Shown here one piece after another: positions 8,810 to 46,706 of a DNA stretch of 64,000 nt; position 1 is the stretch's first letter; the number at the start of each line of letters is the position of its first letter. The stretch is from Roseofilum capinflatum BLCC-M114. Its GTDB lineage: Bacteria > Cyanobacteriota > Cyanobacteriia > Cyanobacteriales > Desertifilaceae. The position numbers and the translations under genes were made by a program. Below the pieces are notes generated by a model that was given only the letters and a program-made list of their open reading frames with translations, was not told the DNA's origin and searched no databases. The stretch is from positions 1 through 64,000 of the forward strand of contig NZ_JAQOSO010000009.1 in assembly GCF_030068505.1 (NCBI RefSeq). Reading direction: 5' to 3'.

Positions 8810-8925
8810 GTCATTGCGAATGGAACGCAGTAGAATGAAGCAATCTCAACCCTATCGAGAATTGTTGCGATTGCTTCCCTGCGGTCGCAATAACAAGTGT
8901 TTAACCGGACTTTATATTACATAAA
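8810..8925. repeat. Inverted-repeat dispersed element, copy 2 (in the 361-bp gap 8679-9039)
   Basis: This is the same family as 5747..5831 but in the opposite orientation: it begins GTCATTGCGAATGGAACGCAG, the reverse of the end of copy 1. The shared flank (AACCGGACTTTATAT, reverse of the sequence before copy 1) extends the match to about 8925. Apart from this repeat and the candidate promoter at 8944, I see nothing in the gap. Confidence 0.75.
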
Positions 8926-8943
8926 GTTGTATACAATCAACAG

Positions 8944-8972
8944 TTTACGAGGCGGAGACATGGCCCTATAAT
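8944..8972 (+). promoter_or_regulatory. Candidate sigma-70-type promoter for the 9040 gene
   Basis: TTTACG, a 17-nt spacer and TATAAT, placed about 70 nt upstream of the GTG start. The -10 is perfect, the -35 is weak. Confidence 0.4.
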
Positions 8973-9039
8973 ATTAGCGCTTAGGGAGTAGTTTCTCAAA
9001 TTATTATCAAAATTCAACTGATATGGAGAGAAGTAAACA

Positions 9040-9552
9040 GTGCTTATTTTAGCGATCGTCTTGAAAGCAATCATGGTTGCGATTTTGGGACTCATATTCG
9101 GAGATTTCCTATCTACGTTTATATACCACGTCCCAGAACATGCTTTTGGTAAGTTTCATGTCACAGTTCACCATAGTAAAAACAAGGATTTCTATCATTA
9201 TGCTGTTTTGAGTCCACAATGGAAGGTCTTACTCGATGGAATATTAGGAATTGCGCCTTACTTCCTTCTTTTACCTATTTTTTTACCCATTTCAGTTTCG
9301 GGCTGTATTTTATGTTATTTATGCGGTCAGGGTCATGTCATTTGGAGACATACAACTGCCCTAAGTTGGCAAACGCCTGAAAAGATCAGCAAAGTTTGTC
9401 AATATTTGGGTATTGTTACCCCTGAATTCCATTGGCAACACCATAAAAATGCTCATGAAGCATTTGGAGATATTTTTGTTTTTTATGATAAGCCAGCAAG
9501 AGCATGGCTTAAGTTCCTGTTGAACCTAAAACGTAGGGTTCCTATCTTCTAG
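9040..9552 (+). CDS. Small histidine-rich membrane protein, fatty acid hydroxylase-like
   Basis: A 170-residue membrane protein with GTG start behind GGAGAG. Histidine clusters YHVPEH, HVTVHH, HVIWRH and FHWQHHKNAHEAFGD are spaced between hydrophobic helices, as in the di-iron fatty acid hydroxylase/sterol desaturase superfamily. It is shorter than typical members (about 200-300 residues). The position inside a desaturase cluster supports an oxidative lipid-modifying role, but this is inference. It is the only plus-strand gene between 5.8 and 17.3 kb. Confidence 0.6.
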   Translation: MLILAIVLKAIMVAILGLIFGDFLSTFIYHVPEHAFGKFHVTVHHSKNKDFYHYAVLSPQWKVLLDGILGIAPYFLLLPIFLPISVSGCILCYLCGQGHVIWRHTTALSWQTPEKISKVCQYLGIVTPEFHWQHHKNAHEAFGDIFVFYDKPARAWLKFLLNLKRRVPIF

Positions 9553-10620: not shown

Positions 10621-11670
10621 TTATCCTTGCTGGGTAAAGGGTTGATAGCATTTGTCCTCATCGTATAAATGACAAACGCTGGTAATTTTCCAGAGGGAAG
10701 AGAAGGAAAATTCATTAGTCGTCATGTATTCTCCCCAGTTTTCTTCTAGACTGGCATGAGCCTGACGCAGATTGTACCAGGGGATAGCAGTAGAGATGTG
10801 ATGGGGAACATGAACATTAATATCATGGGCCATCCATTCAAACCATCGGGGATATTGACAATGGGCTGTTCCCATCAGTTGGGCTTCTGCTTCATTCCAT
10901 TCCGATTGGGGTTTAAAGGGAATATCGGGTTTGGTGTGGTGCAGGAGGGTAATGGTACTCATCCAGAAATGGAAGACGAGCCAAGGCATGAGCCAATAGT
11001 TAACCAAGCCCCACCATCCCGTGGTGGCAATGAGTAAGGGGAATCCGATCGCCATTTGAGCAAGGACAAAGAGGACGGAAAACCGGACTTGCTCTCGCTG
11101 TTTACCTTCAAAAGTCCACCATTGGAAGTGGATTTTTGCCCAATGAACGGCGGAGGCTAACCACCAAAATTTACCCCGCAGGTGGCGATAGGCCCATTGT
11201 TCAATCGGAGGGAACTGGTTATATTCTTCGCGGGAGTAGGCTGTCCAAGCATTATCAATTTCTAGGCAGTTGGTATATTTATGATGGATGTTATGTTGAA
11301 TGCGCCAAGCGTGAAAGGGATAAATGCAAGGAATGAGAACGAGATGGCCGACGAGGTTATTCACCCATTTACGATTGGAGAAAGACCGGTGTCCGCAGTC
11401 ATGGGCGATAACGAATAGGCCGGTGAAGGCGCTACCGGTGAAGAGCCAGAGAAGGGGCAGTAAGTACCAAGGGGCGTTAGCGGTTCCCCACCATCCTAAA
11501 CCGACGAGGATGATATTGGTGATTACCCCTGTCCAGGCTTTCAAGGGATGTTTGACAAACACTTCCTTGGGAAGGGTGTCTAAAATATCTCGAAGGCGAA
11601 TATTGGGATCGAGTCCGATCTTTGCGTCTGCTTGCAGGCGTTCAGACGGTTGTGCGATCGCTGTTTTCAT
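10621..11670 (-). CDS. Delta-12 acyl-lipid desaturase (DesA-like), copy 1
   Basis: A 349-residue membrane di-iron desaturase that inserts the second double bond (delta-12) into lipid-bound oleoyl chains. Histidine boxes: HDCGHRSF, HNIHH (in WRIQHNIHHKYTN) and HVPHH (in HDINVHVPHH). The TLLHHTKPDI segment is typical of DesA, and I see no resemblance to the DesB N-terminus. The start at 11670 (MKTAIAQPSE) follows AGGAAC and matches the start of the neighbouring paralogue in sequence; an upstream in-frame ATG would add 17 residues. The gene is tandem with 11767..12816, also 349 codons. Confidence 0.92.
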   Translation of the reverse strand: MKTAIAQPSERLQADAKIGLDPNIRLRDILDTLPKEVFVKHPLKAWTGVITNIILVGLGWWGTANAPWYLLPLLWLFTGSAFTGLFVIAHDCGHRSFSNRKWVNNLVGHLVLIPCIYPFHAWRIQHNIHHKYTNCLEIDNAWTAYSREEYNQFPPIEQWAYRHLRGKFWWLASAVHWAKIHFQWWTFEGKQREQVRFSVLFVLAQMAIGFPLLIATTGWWGLVNYWLMPWLVFHFWMSTITLLHHTKPDIPFKPQSEWNEAEAQLMGTAHCQYPRWFEWMAHDINVHVPHHISTAIPWYNLRQAHASLEENWGEYMTTNEFSFSSLWKITSVCHLYDEDKCYQPFTQQG

Positions 11671-39869: not shown

Positions 39870-39941
39870 GCCCGTGTAGCTCAGTGGTAGAGCACACCCT
39901 TGGTAAGGGTGAGGTCACGAGTTCAATCCTCGTCACGGGCT
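39870..39941 (+). tRNA. tRNA-Thr (anticodon GGU), element attachment site
   Basis: 72 nt with a perfect acceptor stem GCCCGTG/CACGGGC, D loop AGTGGTA, anticodon loop TTGGTAA (GGT at 39902..39904) and T loop TTCAATC. Its 3' portion (39896 onward) is repeated exactly at 46657..46706, and the integrase gene starts 87 bp downstream. The intact copy is therefore regenerated by the element's own end. Confidence 0.96.
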
Positions 39942-39945
39942 TCCT
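39896..39945. repeat. attL: 50-bp direct repeat, left copy
   Basis: From the anticodon-arm end of tRNA-Thr to 4 nt past the gene. Identical to 46657..46706. Confidence 0.92.
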
Positions 39946-40028
39946 TACTGGTAACGGTTTCGTTGATTGGGTTAACCCCTTAAGTGACTCATTGTGTGTT
40001 TGTGGACAAACTAAACCCACAAATCACT

Positions 40029-41294
40029 ATGAAAAAGCGATTACCAAAAATTCAACCAGAAAATCGTAATGGGTATATACGCCTAAGATGGTCGTACCTA
40101 GGTAAGCGATACACTCTATCAAATTTGGGTAGGTATGATGACCCATTAGACATGAGTATCACCCAAAGTGTAATCGGTCAGATTAAACGGGATATCCATT
40201 TAGGCAAGTTTGACCCATCCCTGCAAGCGTACAGCCAGAATCATATCGACAACGAAAATAGAATGGTGACGTTTTTGGAGGAGTCACTTCAATGGGGATT
40301 AGATGACGTTTGGGAGTTTTACAAAGATATCAAGCGCAACGATGCACCGTTAACCACACAAAAGAACCATTGGGCAATGGTTGACAACGCTATTGGGCGA
40401 TTATCACCGAGTGAACTAATTTCACATAGCGCCAAAGGGTTAGTAACCGCTTTACTTCTCTATTATGGTGGTGCAACACTTGAGAGATTGTTGAATAACA
40501 TCATTGCAGCAAGTAACCTTGCCTATGAGCATGGAAAGATAGCAGAAAGTTATTGGGGAAAAGTCAAAAAACAACTACCCAGTAGGAAACAACAAAAAAG
40601 AGACAGCAACCGAACACAGAAGGCTTACTCAGTAGATGAAGTAGCAGCTATCTTAGAGGCACTCAAAAGCGATAAATATTGCCCACATAAAAGCGCTTAT
40701 TCACATAGCAACTATTATCGGTTTGTTGAGTTTTTGGTGTTGACCGGTTGCAGACCAGGTGAGGCGATAGCGCTAACCTGGGGTGATATTGAAGGGGGGA
40801 AAATACGCTTCAATAAATCCTATTCATTAGGTGTTCTCAAGGGAACCAAAAATGGAAAAACCCGCTATTTTCCTATTAATGACAGACTGAATGATTGTTT
40901 GATGGATGCACTTATGGGACTGAATCTTGTCCCAATGGTTAACGGCTACTTTTTACCTGTAGCAGCAGACATAGATGAAGGGGTGACTAACTGTAAGAAC
41001 GCATTGAAACCAGACTTATTAAGCTGTCTGGTTTTTTCATCTATTACTGGTGGCTACATCAATCTACAAAATTTTACTAACAGAGTGTTTAAGAGGGTAA
41101 TCGATGGGTTGTATAATGATGGATTGATTAAACAGAAGTTGCCCACATACAACCTTAGAAACACCTCTGCAAGCTTCTATCTTAGAATGGGTGTAGATAG
41201 AGCCACCATTGCTCATCTATTTGAGACATCAGGAGAGATGTTAGACCGGCATTACTTCTCACCTGATGCAAGCGTAGAGTTACCAGAGATGTAA
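40029..41294 (+). CDS. Tyrosine recombinase (element integrase)
   Basis: A 421-residue integrase. The N-terminal part (KKRLPKIQPENRNGYIRLRW) resembles arm-binding domains of phage-type integrases, followed by a SAM-like core-binding domain and a catalytic domain. Box I arginine is Arg242 in LTGCRPGEAIALTWGDI, and box II is YNLRNTS with Arg377, where the usual HxxRH is changed. The nucleophile is Tyr409 in LDRHYF; the usual LGHSS is replaced by LFETSGE. The tyrosine and both arginines are kept, so it is probably active, with a variant active site seen in some cyanobacterial integrases. The start could be ATG 40029 or an upstream GTG at 39984. It lies directly after attL. Confidence 0.85.
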   Translation: MKKRLPKIQPENRNGYIRLRWSYLGKRYTLSNLGRYDDPLDMSITQSVIGQIKRDIHLGKFDPSLQAYSQNHIDNENRMVTFLEESLQWGLDDVWEFYKDIKRNDAPLTTQKNHWAMVDNAIGRLSPSELISHSAKGLVTALLLYYGGATLERLLNNIIAASNLAYEHGKIAESYWGKVKKQLPSRKQQKRDSNRTQKAYSVDEVAAILEALKSDKYCPHKSAYSHSNYYRFVEFLVLTGCRPGEAIALTWGDIEGGKIRFNKSYSLGVLKGTKNGKTRYFPINDRLNDCLMDALMGLNLVPMVNGYFLPVAADIDEGVTNCKNALKPDLLSCLVFSSITGGYINLQNFTNRVFKRVIDGLYNDGLIKQKLPTYNLRNTSASFYLRMGVDRATIAHLFETSGEMLDRHYFSPDASVELPEM

Positions 41295-41357: not shown

Positions 41358-41371
41358 CTATTGAACAGTAG
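41358..41371. promoter_or_regulatory. Degenerate element operator (CTATTGAACAGTAG)
   Basis: It matches the 14-bp palindrome CTACTGTACAGTAG at 12 of 14 positions and lies upstream of the 92-residue protein gene. Confidence 0.4.
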
Positions 41372-41440: not shown

Positions 41441-41454
41441 CTACTGTACGGTAG
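41441..41454. promoter_or_regulatory. Palindromic operator candidate CTACTGTACGGTAG
   Basis: One mismatch from a perfect 14-bp palindrome. It lies 22 bp before the start of the 92-residue protein, close to where a promoter -10/+1 would be expected. The same sequence recurs at 44744..44757. Confidence 0.6.
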
Positions 41455-41475: not shown

Positions 41476-41754
41476 ATGAAGCACAAGAGTAACACAACTG
41501 GATTAAGACCCGTTCATAGCAAGTGGAAATCATGTAAGGAGACTAAACCGGTAAGGATACCAGTGACGCTAATAGATGACGTTTTAGCTTACGCTAGGGC
41601 GCTAGATTGTGGGGATTTACAGCCACCTAGTCAACATCGTGAGTTAGATAAAGTCGTTAAAATATTGAATGACGCTCTATCGTTAAAAGCTAACTCAGGG
41701 GGTAAGATTAAAGCCAAAATAAAGGAAGCGTTAGAGGTAATTGAAAGACTTTAA
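41476..41754 (+). CDS. Small putative DNA-binding regulator (92 aa)
   Basis: A basic-then-acidic protein. The core TKPVRIPVTLIDDVLAYARALD reads as a beta strand followed by a helix, reminiscent of ribbon-helix-helix regulators, and the C-terminal half is helical. This is by eye only. It sits immediately after two operator-like palindromes and just before the replication gene, so it is a good candidate for the element's copy-number or excision regulator. AGGTAA lies before ATG 41476. Confidence 0.6.
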   Translation: MKHKSNTTGLRPVHSKWKSCKETKPVRIPVTLIDDVLAYARALDCGDLQPPSQHRELDKVVKILNDALSLKANSGGKIKAKIKEALEVIERL

Positions 41755-41774: not shown

Positions 41775-41855
41775 ATGATTGAATGTGGGGTAACCACAAA
41801 AAAGAAACGACCGGAGGTCACCCCTACCGGTCATTCAAAAACACTAAAAGATTAA
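41775..41855 (+). CDS. Overlapping leader ORF (26 codons) upstream of the primase
   Basis: ATG 41775 opens a 26-codon frame (MIECGVTTKKKRPEVT at its start) that ends with TAA at 41853..41855. Its last A is the first base of the replication gene ATG (TAATG). AGAGAGAG lies about 10 nt before it. The TAATG overlap suggests translational coupling. A small hairpin (GACCGG/CCGGTC, 41809..41832) covers a GGAGGT inside the ORF. Whether the peptide has a function of its own is unknown. Confidence 0.5.
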   Translation: MIECGVTTKKKRPEVTPTGHSKTLKD

Positions 41856-44524
41856 TGTACAATAGTAATACAAATACCGTCGTGTCCGCAACGGGTAGTT
41901 CTTCTAATACTACCAGTATACCACAAAATGAGAATCATTCCCACGTTTCGCTAGAGGATTGGTTTGCTCAACAGATGGCAAAATCGGGAATCACTAACCC
42001 AACCCTGTTAAAGCAGTTCAAACATCATGAATCTGGGTTCACCGTTACCGGTATAGATGCTGATGGGAAACCAAATAGGAAGTCTTGGCAATTGCGGTTA
42101 AAGAACCCTGGTAATGGCGCTAAGTACAAATGCAGGAAGAGACAAGAAGGAGAGGGCTGTAGTTATGATGCTCTCCTTCTTGGTGGTCGGTTAAGTGACT
42201 TTCCACTGGTAGCCCAAAAAAATCAACAGCACTTGTCTACGGTTAAATCCGACAAGGAACTATGGGTTCTGATGACCGCTTTTGATAACCTCCCTATCGT
42301 CATCACAGAAGGGGCAAAAAAGGCAGCGTGTGGACTTGAGAACGGTTATATAACTCTGTCCATTCCAGGTTGCACAATGGGACTCAAACCGGAATCAACT
42401 GAGTTGGTAGACACCCTAAGAGCGTTCTGTGGGAAGGATAGACCCGTAACCCTAATCCCTGACTCTGACTTTAGGGTAAACCCGGACGTTTACCGAGCAT
42501 GGCGTAAGCTGGCGAAAGTATTAGAAGATAGGGGGTGTAAGGTACGAGTTGGGACGTGGGAAGCAACCGACATCCCAACCCGTGAGAAGCTGACAATCAA
42601 GGACGTTAAAGGAATGGATGATTTTATCGTCAACGGTGGCGACTTTGATAAGGTCATCAAGACCGCAATGACTATCGCTCAATGGGAGAAGCAATTCCCA
42701 GAGCCAAAAGCCAAAGGAAAAACTGACCAAAGGAAGGGAAGCGGTAGCGCTAAACTCTCCCCCATTGAAAAGGCTCAATTAGCCATTAATGGTTTAGGGG
42801 TTCATCTCAGGTTTAACGAACTGTCTAAAGAGATTGAGTCATCCCCCGGTGAGGGTGTAGATGGTGATGCGCTATGGGTGCGTGGCTGTGCTGATTCTGA
42901 CCTGTACACTTCCGTTGATACGTTCTATCGTGTCCTAGGCATTGAAGCTAAGAAGGACAGCTACCACCCCATACAGGAGTATCTCAAGGGATGTCATGAG
43001 AAGTATGGGGATGACGTATCGGTTCTAAATGACATTGCTAGACGCTATCTAGGCACAAGTGACTCATTACATCAAACCTTCCTGGTCAAGTGGCTTATAG
43101 GCGCTGTAGCTAGGGCTATGACACCAGGATGCAAGATGGATACAGCGCTAGTTCTCCATGGTTCCCAAGGTATCGGTAAATCCACATTCTTTAACGTCCT
43201 TGCTGGTGACTGGTTTACCGACTCTCTGGACAAGCTAGATAGCAGCAACAAAGACGAGCTATTAAAGGCTCACCAATCATGGGTTATTGAGTTGGCAGAG
43301 ATTGAAAACGCTTTCAGCAAGACGGCTATCAGCAAAATAAAGCAGTCAATGTCAGCAACCACTGACCAAATTAGACCCCCCTACGGACGCAAGACAGAGA
43401 AGTGTAAGCGGGGGTTTGTCATCTGTGGCACAACCAACCAAACCCAGTTTCTCAATGACCCCACTGGCTCTAGACGGTTTTGGGTTATCTCCTGTAACGG
43501 ACGGGTTAATCGTGAGTTACTCACTCAAGAGCGTGACCAAATATGGGGCGCTGCATACGCTCTATGGGCTAAGGGTGAAAAGTGGTATCTAACGGAGTTT
43601 GAAGAGGAAGCGTTAGCCATCAACAATGAGGGTTATGAGTCTCAAGACCCATGGGTAGAGTTTCTCAGGGATGCACTACTTGAAAGGGGAGAACAGACAA
43701 CTACGGTCAAAGACTGCTTTGAGCATCTAGACATGCCTGAGCCTAAATCCCACAACTCAAAGGAGTCAAGACGGATTAAAGATTGCTTGACCCATTTGGG
43801 CTATCAACCAGAGAAGTTTTACCGGAACGGAAAGCAGGTTAGAGGATGGGCTATTGAATCCCTAGACAAACTCAATCAAAACTTTGGGAATTCACTGTCT
43901 CAACTGTCTCAAGACGCTGGAACCCAGTCAGCACAAGCTTTTGACAACAAGACAGTACAACAAAACCCACTGTCTCACACTGTCTCGTCTGTCTCAACCA
44001 ATGATGATGGGGATGCAGAACAAGACAGACAAGACAGTAACAAGACAGTTCAAGACAGTCTACTGTCTCACCCTCAAACCCATACAGGGCAAGGGGTACA
44101 GGATAATAAGACAGTTGAGACAGTAAAACCCCAAACTTTCAATCAGAATGACTTACCGTTCTCTAGGGGGGATAACGTTTGGGTCACTACCGCCAACGGT
44201 AAACGGGAGGGAACCATTACTAACCCCCCTGATAGATATGGGGAGTGGGGAGTAGAGTTCAAGAACAGTAAAGGAGAGTGGATGAGCCACCGATTCCCGT
44301 CAGAAGGGTTATCGCCTAGAGAAGAGTCCGACGGCTACTCTGTAGGTGACAAAGTTTGGGTTAAAGATGCTCAGGGTAACTCTAGGGAAGGGGTTATCAC
44401 TCACCCCAAGGATGAGGACGGGAAATGGGGGTTAAAAATCAACGTTGGAACAAGTAGAGAAGAGGAGTGGAAAAAAGACATCTACTACCCCTCTGATGAG
44501 CTGACCCCTAGGCTGATGAGCTGA
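41855..44524 (+). CDS. Primase-helicase replication protein (Toprim + VapE-type SF3-like)
   Basis: An 889-residue replication initiator. The N-terminal half holds a DUF3854/Toprim-like primase: Glu152 in VITEGAKKAA and the Asp pair 203/205 in IPDSDF. A VapE-type helicase follows: Walker A HGSQGIGKST with Lys442, Walker B IELAEIE, sensor ICGTTNQ and the arginine in TGSRRFW. Residues about 680-757 form a linker whose DNA carries 13 ACTGTCT-type repeats. The C-terminus has two related SH3/KOW-like modules (about 770-825 RGDNVWVTTANGK; about 830-885 VGDKVWVKDAQG). ATG 41855 is preferred because it overlaps the leader ORF; ATG 41783 in frame would add 24 residues. A 20-bp tandem duplication has changed the last residues. 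It is transcribed alone and followed by a terminator hairpin. Confidence 0.85.
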   Translation: MYNSNTNTVVSATGSSSNTTSIPQNENHSHVSLEDWFAQQMAKSGITNPTLLKQFKHHESGFTVTGIDADGKPNRKSWQLRLKNPGNGAKYKCRKRQEGEGCSYDALLLGGRLSDFPLVAQKNQQHLSTVKSDKELWVLMTAFDNLPIVITEGAKKAACGLENGYITLSIPGCTMGLKPESTELVDTLRAFCGKDRPVTLIPDSDFRVNPDVYRAWRKLAKVLEDRGCKVRVGTWEATDIPTREKLTIKDVKGMDDFIVNGGDFDKVIKTAMTIAQWEKQFPEPKAKGKTDQRKGSGSAKLSPIEKAQLAINGLGVHLRFNELSKEIESSPGEGVDGDALWVRGCADSDLYTSVDTFYRVLGIEAKKDSYHPIQEYLKGCHEKYGDDVSVLNDIARRYLGTSDSLHQTFLVKWLIGAVARAMTPGCKMDTALVLHGSQGIGKSTFFNVLAGDWFTDSLDKLDSSNKDELLKAHQSWVIELAEIENAFSKTAISKIKQSMSATTDQIRPPYGRKTEKCKRGFVICGTTNQTQFLNDPTGSRRFWVISCNGRVNRELLTQERDQIWGAAYALWAKGEKWYLTEFEEEALAINNEGYESQDPWVEFLRDALLERGEQTTTVKDCFEHLDMPEPKSHNSKESRRIKDCLTHLGYQPEKFYRNGKQVRGWAIESLDKLNQNFGNSLSQLSQDAGTQSAQAFDNKTVQQNPLSHTVSSVSTNDDGDAEQDRQDSNKTVQDSLLSHPQTHTGQGVQDNKTVETVKPQTFNQNDLPFSRGDNVWVTTANGKREGTITNPPDRYGEWGVEFKNSKGEWMSHRFPSEGLSPREESDGYSVGDKVWVKDAQGNSREGVITHPKDEDGKWGLKINVGTSREEEWKKDIYYPSDELTPRLMS
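43894..44124. repeat. Array of 13 ACTGTCT/AGACAGT repeats inside the primase gene
   Basis: Exact 7-mers start at 43894, 43903, 43950, 43969, 43979, 44032, 44043, 44053, 44062, 44109 and 44118; variants start at 43988 and 44023. Several are 9-10 bp apart, about one helical turn. Both orientations occur. The copies fall in different codon phases and so encode different peptides (LSQ, TVS, KTV, QDS). The conservation is therefore at DNA level. Confidence 0.9.
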
Positions 44525-44532
44525 CCCCTAGG
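44493..44532. repeat. 20-bp tandem duplication at the primase stop
   Basis: CTGATGAGCTGACCCCTAGG occurs twice in tandem. Because 20 is not a multiple of 3, the second copy is read in another frame: the protein now ends LTPRLMS with TGA. Without the duplication it would end LTPREE with TAA, matching the LSPREE of the upstream module. Confidence 0.9.
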
Positions 44533-44563
44533 GAAGAATAAAATTCCTGGCAATCATCCTCAC

Positions 44564-44600
44564 GTGGCTATCGTCATAGGTAGCCACAATTTCCTTTTGT
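44564..44600 (+). terminator. Terminator hairpin of the primase gene
   Basis: GTGGCTA (44564..44570) pairs with TAGCCAC (44581..44587), followed by a T-rich tract. Confidence 0.6.
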
Positions 44601-44620
44601 CATGGCTTGATAACTTTCAC

Positions 44621-44682
44621 TTTGTTTTCACTCTGTACTATCAAACTCCTATAGGGTTGTGATAGTACAGAGTGAAAACAAA
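44621..44682. repeat. 23-bp perfect inverted repeat
   Basis: Arms 44621..44643 and 44660..44682 are fully complementary, with a 16-nt loop, followed by CGTTTTTTT. It is far longer than a terminator stem needs to be. It marks the left edge of the iteron/palindrome region and could be a strong terminator, an RNA structure or a single-strand origin hairpin. Confidence 0.85.
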
Positions 44683-44743
44683 ACGTTTTTTTGGGTAATG
44701 TGCAATGATGTGACTTAACGCAGATTGGTAATGTGCAATAAAC

Positions 44744-44757
44744 CTACTGTACGGTAG
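44744..44757. promoter_or_regulatory. Palindromic operator candidate CTACTGTACGGTAG
   Basis: Identical to 41441..41454. Confidence 0.6.
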
Positions 44758-44835
44758 TAGTCTGCATTAAATCATAGATTTTTACTTATAATGTGCGTTG
44801 CATATTATCGTTAAAGTCTATTGCAACCCATAGCT

Positions 44836-44849
44836 CTACTGTACAGTAG
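44836..44849. promoter_or_regulatory. Perfect 14-bp palindrome CTACTGTACAGTAG
   Basis: The consensus member of the set, directly abutting a TAATGTGCAAT iteron at 44850. Confidence 0.65.
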
Positions 44850-45063
44850 TAATGTGCAATGTAGTGTGTGACATCCTGTAGTTATATATGCAGCATGTAA
44901 TATGCTATGTATTACTTGACGGCTGAAACCCTTACCCTGTGGGCATCGTAGAGTTAGAGGGGTTGGCTGTATGATTGGTCATTTAGGGGGGTGAAGCGTC
45001 TTGTAGCTCAAATTTGAGGCGCTATGAGCATGGGTTGAGTAGTACGGGGGTGAAGCCAGAGCG

Positions 45064-45077
45064 CTACTGTACAATAG
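45064..45077. promoter_or_regulatory. Palindromic operator candidate CTACTGTACAATAG
   Basis: One mismatch to the palindrome, 35 bp upstream of the candidate promoter at 45112. Confidence 0.55.
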
Positions 45078-45111
45078 AGTTTTATTGATCGATATCATTA
45101 GATATAGCGTA

Positions 45112-45140
45112 TTGATTTAACTGACAGTCAAGCTTATGAT
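45112..45140 (+). promoter_or_regulatory. Candidate promoter for the 45242 gene
   Basis: TTGATT, 17-nt spacer, TATGAT. The presumed leader contains hairpin GTAGTG/CACTAC (45175..45192). Confidence 0.5.
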
Positions 45141-45241
45141 GGGAGTTATCAGTTTTGGATTGAACGCCCTGAGAGTAGTGGTGACGCACTACCCTAGGAC
45201 TTCCCCAACTGTGTCAGTACCACAATTGGAGCCTTTTGATT

Positions 45242-45574
45242 ATGACACACCAAGTGTTAGTCCCCACATATGTTGGGCATGATGACCGCGTTTATTACAC
45301 CTACGTTGATAAGTCTGCTATTCCAGAGATGAATAGGTTTAACGTGGGTGACAAGGTTAAAGTTAATGGATTGCCTGAAGAGTATACCCATACTATTGAC
45401 TGCGTTTCATACGATTTAGATGTTAATGAGTGGGTTTATTACGTCCAATTTGACCCCCATCTTACATCTCCTGACCCAAGGGTTCAATCTTGGCTTGAGG
45501 ACATGGCATCAGACCCCAATGAGCGTGCATGGTGGTTTGATAATTCACGTATAACCACGCCTACTATGCTGTAG
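45242..45574 (+). CDS. Element protein of unknown function (110 aa), SH3/KOW-like
   Basis: An acidic protein. The middle (FNVGDKVKVNGLPEEYTHTI, then NEWVYYVQFD) resembles the two C-terminal modules of the primase (VGDKVWV...GKWGLKI), so it may share a nucleic-acid- or protein-binding fold. ATG 45242 follows GGAG; an in-frame TTG lies 6 nt upstream. Ends in a tryptophan-rich segment (ERAWWFDNS). No database family recognised. Confidence 0.6.
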   Translation: MTHQVLVPTYVGHDDRVYYTYVDKSAIPEMNRFNVGDKVKVNGLPEEYTHTIDCVSYDLDVNEWVYYVQFDPHLTSPDPRVQSWLEDMASDPNERAWWFDNSRITTPTML

Positions 45575-45658: not shown

Positions 45659-45699
45659 CAACATCACCGTCAATCACTATTACACTAATTATGCATACA
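45646..45699. promoter_or_regulatory. Repeated TTATGCATACA boxes, candidate autoregulatory operators
   Basis: Exact 11-bp copies at 45646..45656 and 45689..45699, 43 bp apart (about four helical turns), each with the palindromic core TATGCATA. The first overlaps the -10 box; the second overlaps the ATG at 45691. Confidence 0.55.
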
Positions 45700-46272
45700 C
45701 AGAAGATAGGTCTACACTCTCAAGCGTCAAGAAAAGAGGGTTCTAATCGGAACCGAACAACGTTAACGCTATCTGACCAGACCAAAGCGCTACTAGAGAA
45801 GATTGGCTATGGTTCTATGTCTGATGGGGTTTACATTTCATCCCAGATTGTTGCCGAACTTTTGAAGCGCAAAATCATTACCGTTGACTTTGATGATGGG
45901 GGGATTGTTTACCGGCTAGAGGGTGACAAGGAAATCATCTCATCTCCCCGATCAGGGCGTGATGAAGCCAAGAAAAGTCACCGGGCTAAGGTTGATGAGA
46001 TACTCACCCCCAAACCAAAACTCAACCCTTACGCGGGTAAAGTGCTGAACAAGGAACAGTTAATGAGAACCGGTCACTTTACCCATAAGATGATGAGGGC
46101 AATCCTACCGGGTCATAGGGTGACGGATAGATTTGGTTATTGGTGGGAGAGAGTGGATAACCCAGATAGCCCAGAGAGTTTACAGCGTGGGTTGAGAAGT
46201 GATAGAGGGCGTTTAATGGCAACGTATGTGGGGTTAGAGAATGAAGGGGATAGTTGTATGAGATATTTGTAG
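45691..46272 (+). CDS. Element protein of unknown function (193 aa), possible regulator
   Basis: Basic N-terminus (residues 1-24), then a segment NRTTLTLSDQTKALLEKIGY plus SMSDGVYISSQIVAELLKRK whose strand-helix-helix layout recalls ribbon-helix-helix or winged-helix DNA-binding proteins. The C-terminal part (GHFTHKMMRAILPGHRVTDR) is basic with several Trp/Tyr. No known family. A near-consensus promoter flanked by repeated operator-like boxes suggests autoregulation. Followed by a perfect terminator. Confidence 0.65.
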   Translation: MHTQKIGLHSQASRKEGSNRNRTTLTLSDQTKALLEKIGYGSMSDGVYISSQIVAELLKRKIITVDFDDGGIVYRLEGDKEIISSPRSGRDEAKKSHRAKVDEILTPKPKLNPYAGKVLNKEQLMRTGHFTHKMMRAILPGHRVTDRFGYWWERVDNPDSPESLQRGLRSDRGRLMATYVGLENEGDSCMRYL

Positions 46273-46656: not shown

Positions 46657-46706
46657 ACCCTTGGTAAGGGTGAGGTCACGAGTTCAATCCTCGTCACGGG
46701 CTTCCT
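46657..46706. repeat. attR: 50-bp direct repeat, right copy
   Basis: Exact copy of 39896..39945, carrying the 3' part of tRNA-Thr without its 5' half. The preceding bases do not resemble a tRNA 5' half. The gap 46707..47009 to the next gene holds the hairpin at 46923 and otherwise nothing I recognise. Confidence 0.92.

Follow-up and report, generated by a model that had tools for sequence, protein, structure and literature searches.

An array of thirteen heptamers lying within the coding sequence of a primase-helicase is probably (about 0.8 by our estimate) the iteron replication origin of an integrated element, located inside the gene of the element's own initiator. The estimate draws on sequence comparison, starting from a 64,000-nucleotide stretch of Roseofilum capinflatum BLCC-M114 (hereafter the window). 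The best reading of the locus is that a reading frame has been extended over an iteron origin which is bound by the winged helix of the initiator.

The element and its heptamer array

The element is approximately 6.8 kb long, is integrated at a tRNA-Thr gene of a 5.37-Mb genome, and is bounded by a 50-bp direct repeat. Its features are as follows (window coordinates).

39870..39941, + strand: tRNA-Thr (GGT), the integration target
39896..39945, + strand: attL, 50-bp repeat over the 3' part of tRNA-Thr, exact repeat of 46657-46706
39984..41294, + strand: tyrosine integrase, 436 aa (Pfam PF00589)
41358-41371 and 41441-41454: two operator-like palindromes before the gene for the 92-aa protein
41476..41754, + strand: 92-aa protein of no known family
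41783..44524, + strand: DUF3854 and VapE-like primase-helicase (the putative initiator), 913 aa (PF12965, aa 161-286; PF05272, aa 408-618)
43619..43855, + strand: C-terminal winged helix of the initiator, putative DNA-binding domain, aa 613-691 (from a local profile, the structure model and the range aligned to PriRep1, 7pds)
43894..44124, both strands: candidate iteron array of 13 heptamers, dyad-symmetric (pattern search and shuffles)
43894, 43903, 43969, 43979, 43988 and 44062: array sites on the + strand
43950, 44023, 44032, 44043, 44053, 44109 and 44118: array sites on the - strand
44141..44512, + strand: C-terminal part of the initiator beyond the array, aa 787-910
44525..45235: intergenic stretch; TAATGTGCAAT repeats at 44696, 44729 and 44850
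44744, 44836 and 45064: CTACTGTACRGTAG-like palindromes in the intergenic region
45236..45574, + strand: 112-aa protein, no Pfam match
45691..46272, + strand: 193-aa protein, no Pfam match
46657..46706, + strand: attR, 50 bp, exact repeat of attL

The PF05272 match of the initiator has an E value of 7e-74. A Pfam scan at E 0.01 detected DUF3854, VapE-like and DUF5906 domains in this protein and no DEXDc-type match. L035, a D5-type gene of the same genus, likewise terminates in a match to the C-terminal region of this initiator. The 112-aa protein weakly matches a PHROG of unknown function, and homologues of the 92-aa protein occur in 14 of 147 genomes. No phage-induction or packaging-interference gene was recognised among the five ORFs of the element, three of which belong to no known family. 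All of the 11 best-ranked plasmid hits to the helicase come from cyanobacteria, and a scan of viral contigs found no relative.

A pattern search of positions 43894-44124 found 11 exact copies of ACTGTCT (five on the + and six on the - strand), and two TCTGTCT variants at 43988 (+) and 44023 (-) bring the array to 13 sites. The window as a whole holds 14 exact copies versus 5.2 expected. When the gene was shuffled 2,000 times among synonymous codons with the protein preserved, the linker held on average 0.84 copies and at most five, compared to the 11 observed; 2,000 shuffles of codon order in the linker gave at most two. Neighbouring sites are spaced 9-11 bp start-to-start in eight of 12 pairs, the sites occupy codon phases 0, 1 and 2, and the first heptamer lies 12 aa past the end of the winged-helix domain. 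The original prediction, which had described 11 exact heptamers and two variants on both strands, many of them 9-10 bp apart and in different reading phases, was thus borne out in each of these respects, with a slightly wider range of spacing.

Twelve of the 13 sites mirror each other around an axis at 44009, a symmetry which the original prediction had not noted. Six opposite-strand pairs share this axis within 1 bp, and each arm holds one 'flipped' site, 43950 (-) being paired with 44062 (+). When spacing and strand were shuffled, six mirror pairs were reached in one of 5,000 shuffles with a tolerance of 1 bp and in three of 5,000 with 2 bp.

In SaPI origins, an AT-rich region for melting adjoins the iterons or lies between them. 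No AT-rich melting tract is present inside the window array (GC 0.35-0.55); an AT-rich stretch starts about 450 bp beyond it, with a GC content of 0.34-0.37 over positions 44600-44899. This intergenic DNA may hold a further part of the origin, and a split origin is possible.

One further exact ACTGTCT is found in the initiator gene at 42820, distant from the array, and a related element described below carries a heptamer copy at the matching place. The copy at 42820 was treated as incidental.

A sister element, L003 of Cyanobacteria bacterium UBA2566, is inserted at the same tRNA and shares the gene order; its helicase is 84-85% identical to that of the window. Heptamer positions 3-7 (TGTCT) are identical at 65 of 65 bases between the two elements, while the linker outside the sites is identical at 113 of 159 (71%; Fisher p 2e-8 against the core). 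At third codon positions the figures are 26 of 26 in the core and 33 of 50 in the rest of the linker. Since third positions of the gene upstream of the linker are only 80% identical, conservation of the heptamer core exceeds that of the gene itself. The ten differences within sites all fall on heptamer positions 1-2, and eight of them are identical C-to-T changes at position 2, the sister array having ATTGTCT. That the array is conserved through selection on DNA and not on the peptide, as originally proposed, is well supported by this comparison, in which the core is invariant and the surrounding linker drifts. The linker peptide would then be mainly a side product of an open frame across the origin.

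Arrays in homologous genes and elements

Homologues of the initiator gene were examined at 78 loci, at which 75 ORFs were scorable and 67 had at least 600 codons. An array was called significant when it comprised at least five copies in 300 bp and exceeded all 60 protein-preserving shuffles. CGATCGC, which we take to be HIP1, a general cyanobacterial repeat, was kept out of the counts. Significant arrays were found in 14 of 22 VapE-type ORFs (window and sister included) and in 10 of 14 D5-type ORFs; the other eight and four, respectively, had none. Other DUF3854 genes scored in four of 31 cases, which probably overstates the rate outside SF3 helicases because Pfam places three of these positives in the DUF5906/D5 group and the fourth, L108, is of low complexity. 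The Pfam scan of this class covered five members (L070, L073, L100, L069 and L099), and two array-less long DUF3854 genes gave weak AAA_30/ResIII matches below the Pfam curated cut-offs. The counter requires exact 7-mers and scored the degenerate arrays of L047, L049 and L050 (four copies) as misses. The sets contain near-duplicates (window/L003, L045/L046, L065/L066, L075/L076, L079/L080, L126/L128 and L136/L143). For the D5 profile, L034, L035 and L038 served as sources and the borders were set by hand; A2 was the source of the VapE and winged-helix profiles. These source rows therefore match by construction.

The heptamer varies by lineage (GTTGGTA, CTGTTAC, TGATCCA, AGGTATG, CGTCACA and others), and sites lie on both strands in 24 of the 28 significant arrays. 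In 22 of the 24 VapE/D5 cases the array starts at most 25 aa from the end of the DNA-binding domain, namely 2-25 aa past it in 19 cases and 2-25 aa before it in L003, L063 and L066, with domain ends that are approximate (local profiles, borders set by hand). L079 and L080 have arrays starting 91-93 aa past the domain end. Distant homologues have unlike linkers with arrays of their own at the same place, which also supports selection on the DNA. In a control with a looser test (20 shuffles each), six of 128 further ORFs, each 300 aa or longer, were positive; three of the six proved to be VapE-type (L113, L114 and S-2L), which leaves three of 125.

A second sample was drawn by profile search, in which 41 of 386 genomes of the phylum, the window's own included, had a match at E 1e-20; a significant array was present in 17 among the 30 loci listed. 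An in-gene array was present in 15 of the 17 genes whose coding sequence continues for 139 residues or more beyond the winged helix. Seven of these 17 were shared with the first set, and nine of the ten new ones had an in-gene array. Among these ten, L126 shares its coordinates with L113, a named plasmid gene, and is apparently identical to it. Genes ending at most 27 residues past the domain had an array in two of 11 cases, one spanning the stop codon and one wholly downstream; the other nine had no array nearby. A single family (f41), whose genomes measure 1.7-2.9 Mb, accounts for nine of the 11 short-tail genes, and in four of the 11 the domain end was assumed as there was no winged-helix match. 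Of the two loci outside these classes, L144 is a truncated gene and L148 has a 94-residue tail with four copies. The low rate in short-tail genes speaks against a universal rule, or it reflects the limit of counting exact 7-mers.

The heptamer CAGCAAG recurs in 12 of 34 arrays, a number to be read against the most frequent 7-mer of shuffled sets, which reached up to 14. It stands mostly in one codon phase and occurs also in the noncoding array of p2-NIES88 (see below).

Fourteen named records, not a random sample, were tested with the same counter: 12 were chosen by hand among hits in phages and plasmids, and two were already part of the analysis. Nine of the ten non-cyanobacterial records carry a significant array. 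In seven of the ten it lies wholly downstream of the VapE-type gene (in L151 with another small gene in between); the two further arrays are located across the gene's stop codon and in an unannotated record, respectively. Two Nostoc plasmids have the array inside the gene, while no array was found after the helicase in a Calothrix plasmid and in cyanophage S-2L. In the 3.1-kb Microcystis plasmid p2-NIES88 the gene stops after helicase and winged helix and is accompanied by nine CCCTACC sites in two clusters around an AT-rich tract; this array is noncoding in all three forward frames, and the layout is SaPI-like. L141 is a further noncoding version. The occurrence of arrays outside the helicase coding sequence in p2-NIES88 and in seven of ten non-cyanobacterial relatives again argues for selection at the DNA level. 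GC skew gave no consistent mark of the array in four small plasmids and two elements.

Mirror symmetry was assessed on 34 arrays, among them five plasmid arrays that came from a scan without shuffle control. Over 27 non-redundant arrays (six near-duplicates or sisters and the low-complexity L108 being left out) 80 mirror pairs were counted; shuffles averaged 53.9 and never exceeded 61. Individually, only 11 of the 34 arrays are dyad-symmetric at p < 0.05. Symmetry is strong in the window, L038, L055, L073 and pTCL26-01_E, and absent in L043, L052, L079 and NIES-298.

Candidate binder and alternative readings

A structure model of the initiator covers aa 331-735 (pLDDT 81) and includes the winged-helix region (block pLDDT 66-91). 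Its best structural match is SaPI PriRep1 with dsDNA (7pds), at a Foldseek E value of 1.7e-19 and a Z score of 27.7 over 361 residues, with the next entry at Z 15.1. The range aligned to PriRep1 comprises model residues 1-369 and hence the winged helix, and an hmmsearch of the helicase part against 7pds_A gave an E value of 4e-53. Because the model matches the PriRep1-dsDNA complex far above other entries, the helicase's own winged helix is the most economical binder, and we infer that it binds the heptamers. In a Mantel test over 34 non-redundant loci, heptamer similarity did not co-vary significantly with winged-helix similarity (r 0.065, p 0.10; partial p 0.14). Among the most similar pairs the trend is in the expected direction, on numbers too small to count: L051 shares AAA+ identities of 0.81 and 0.84 with L053 and L068, respectively, winged-helix identities of 0.44 and 0.41, and has a different heptamer, while L053 and L068 (AAA+ 0.92, winged helix 0.74) have similar heptamers.

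Three other explanations of the array were weighed. The heptamers might be control sites, that is, an incompatibility or handcuffing locus or targets of the 92-aa protein or another regulator, with the true origin elsewhere, e.g. at 44525-45235. That intergenic region does contain the repeated TAATGTGCAAT, palindromes and an AT-rich stretch, and homologues of the 92-aa protein are found near helicase genes in some relatives (G001, G005 and G070). We nevertheless regard this explanation as unlikely, as a separate palindrome resembling a regulator's operator lies just before the gene for the 92-aa protein and recurs intergenically. This palindrome, CTACTGTACRGTAG, is present at five places in the element (two just before the gene for the 92-aa protein and three intergenic after the helicase gene), with a weaker sixth at 45561 and none elsewhere in the window; at up to two mismatches, 11 strand matches were found versus 0.43 expected. 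Judged by sequence and placement, it appears to be a better candidate for the regulator's operator than the heptamers, which weakens the regulator-binding array that the original prediction had kept as its alternative. Furthermore, a homologue of the 92-aa protein was detectable in only seven of 23 array genomes (first set, L108 left out; a short query of limited sensitivity), and arrays follow the helicase domain in other phyla too.

A function of the array as a folded single strand, be it an mRNA hairpin or a DNA stem-loop or cruciform, seems very improbable to us, although a strong hairpin is predicted (z -7.3 for the window array, -6.3 for L003) and 35 of 38 arrays fold more stably than their 20 shuffles do on average (z at or below -1.9). 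For pRN1, a stem-loop downstream of the primase-helicase gene is reportedly required at the origin (PMC4234260). Much of the fold, however, arises because the heptamers sit on both strands: heptamers shuffled in order and orientation together with the spacers average -83.5 kcal/mol compared to -91.7 kcal/mol for the array, a value reached by two of 150 shuffles. Between the sisters three of six mirror pairs changed on both sides, where about 2.5 are expected by chance, and the arrays of L075, L090 and NIES-298 show no excess fold. Finally, a protein-level repeat or a product of replication slippage devoid of DNA function would agree with the low-complexity, Q/S/T-rich linker, but we give it next to no credence in view of the several codon phases and both strands used, the codon shuffles that never came near the observed count, the mirror symmetry and the existence of noncoding counterparts.

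In the favoured reading as an iteron origin, the winged helix of the DUF3854-VapE protein would bind heptamers set one helical turn apart, and the two mirror half-arrays would seat two helicase hexamers. These would melt the DNA and then move apart, and the element would replicate following its excision.

With less confidence than for the element itself, we favour a broader version that applies to numerous plasmids and integrated elements of cyanobacteria, in which the initiator's coding sequence doubles as the origin. The array would occupy a fixed slot after the winged helix, would often be mirror-symmetric, and its heptamer and the DNA-binding domain would change jointly between lineages. 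Such a replicon would be a single indivisible gene that acquires new specificity via one short stretch of protein-coding DNA. As related elements use different seven-letter words within the gene, initiator and start site seem to travel as one piece. If true, this would locate the origins of cyanobacterial SF3-helicase replicons and offer an unambiguous example of a DNA segment that carries two codes at once. It also provides natural pairs of site and initiator for testing the evolution of replication specificity and plasmid compatibility, and it predicts single-gene vectors for cyanobacterial laboratory strains.

Relation to known initiators

In the papers searched on cyanobacterial plasmid replication proteins, the word iteron is absent from the main text. 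A literature search, which covered subscription papers thinly and others in part, did not turn up any VapE or DUF3854 system described as having its origin inside the gene. What appears to be new is the combination, of which no account was found: an iteron origin within an SF3 initiator gene that recurs across cyanobacterial lineages with lineage-specific words.

Each component has known counterparts. The CyRepA1 and CyRepA2 proteins (pSYSA and pCC5.2) contain DUF3854 and are reported to support plasmid replication in cyanobacteria; the DUF3854 initiator of pAQ1 is likewise proven, and Synechococcus elongatus PCC 7942 has served as a model host for DUF3854 replicons. They share with the window protein the host phylum, the DUF3854 domain and the role of replication initiator, but are published as DUF3854 plus a DEXDc helicase, a type to which the window initiator has no match. 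An origin within an initiator gene is also reported for repABC plasmids, where oriV lies inside repC (PMC3155836), with a different kind of initiator. In lambdoid phages, the iterons lie inside the coding sequence of the initiator O (PMC7466680). The original prediction had modelled an origin hidden in the linker on lambda O. The origin model itself fits the sequence data, but the nearest relative is the self-loading helicase of SaPI/VapE type, and the likeness to lambda O is one of layout only; ori-lambda has four iterons and an AT-rich part, whereas the window has 13 heptamers in a dyad.

The closest counterparts are the initiators of SaPIs and related PICIs (PriRep1/VapE, SaPI5 Rep and SCCmec Cch2), which join an SF3 helicase to a C-terminal DNA-binding domain, as the window protein does to a putative one. 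In both groups short repeats lie 3' of the sequence encoding this domain, and VapE and D5 flavours both occur. The C-terminal domain of SaPI Rep and Cch2 is reported to bind repeats downstream of their own genes (PMC7581432). A tyrosine integrase and att repeats at a host site, as found in PICIs, are present in the window element as well. The difference lies in the position of the origin, which in SaPIs is described as downstream of the gene (same source), whereas the window array is in frame within the 913-aa ORF. Unlike the SaPI type, the window initiator also possesses an extra C-terminal region past the array and a fused N-terminal DUF3854 domain.

Palindrome and repeats flanking the helicase gene

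Three kinds of repeat were located inside the element, outside the heptamer array:

41358-41371, 41441-41454, 44744-44757, 44836-44849 and 45064-45077: palindrome CTACTGTACRGTAG, five copies
about 44624-44679: GTTTTCACTCTGTACTATCA / TGATAGTACAGAGTGAAAAC, an extended inverted repeat 3' of the helicase stop codon, spotted by eye only
44696, 44729 and 44850: exact repeat TAATGTGCAAT, three copies, intergenic, 3' of the helicase gene

The first two copies of the palindrome lie immediately upstream of the 92-aa gene, and in locus L039 (2124-2229) the palindrome is likewise found 5' of a 92-aa homologue. The palindrome is likely an operator. The inverted repeat could be a terminator.

In the sister element of Cyanobacteria bacterium UBA2566 (L003), TGCAAT repeats akin to TAATGTGCAAT were seen at roughly 8890-9080. 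Beyond that element (10735-11613) come another 3' fragment of tRNA-Thr and a further integrase-like reading frame, suggesting that elements stand in tandem, or that a remnant is left, at the same site.

A second word shared by the arrays

CAGCAAG is a second word common to the arrays (12 of 34), and most of its copies are in one codon phase. It is also present in the noncoding array of the Microcystis plasmid p2-NIES88 (array regions 2614-2640 and 2821-2840). The word may be a peptide feature or a DNA element.

C-terminal region and helicase type

The region following the array (44141-44512, aa 787-910) has a match that also terminates a gene of the same genus (L035), whose helicase is D5-type and not VapE-type. 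In locus L033, the match is located after the D5 gene in a different frame. The helicase core may thus have been swapped.
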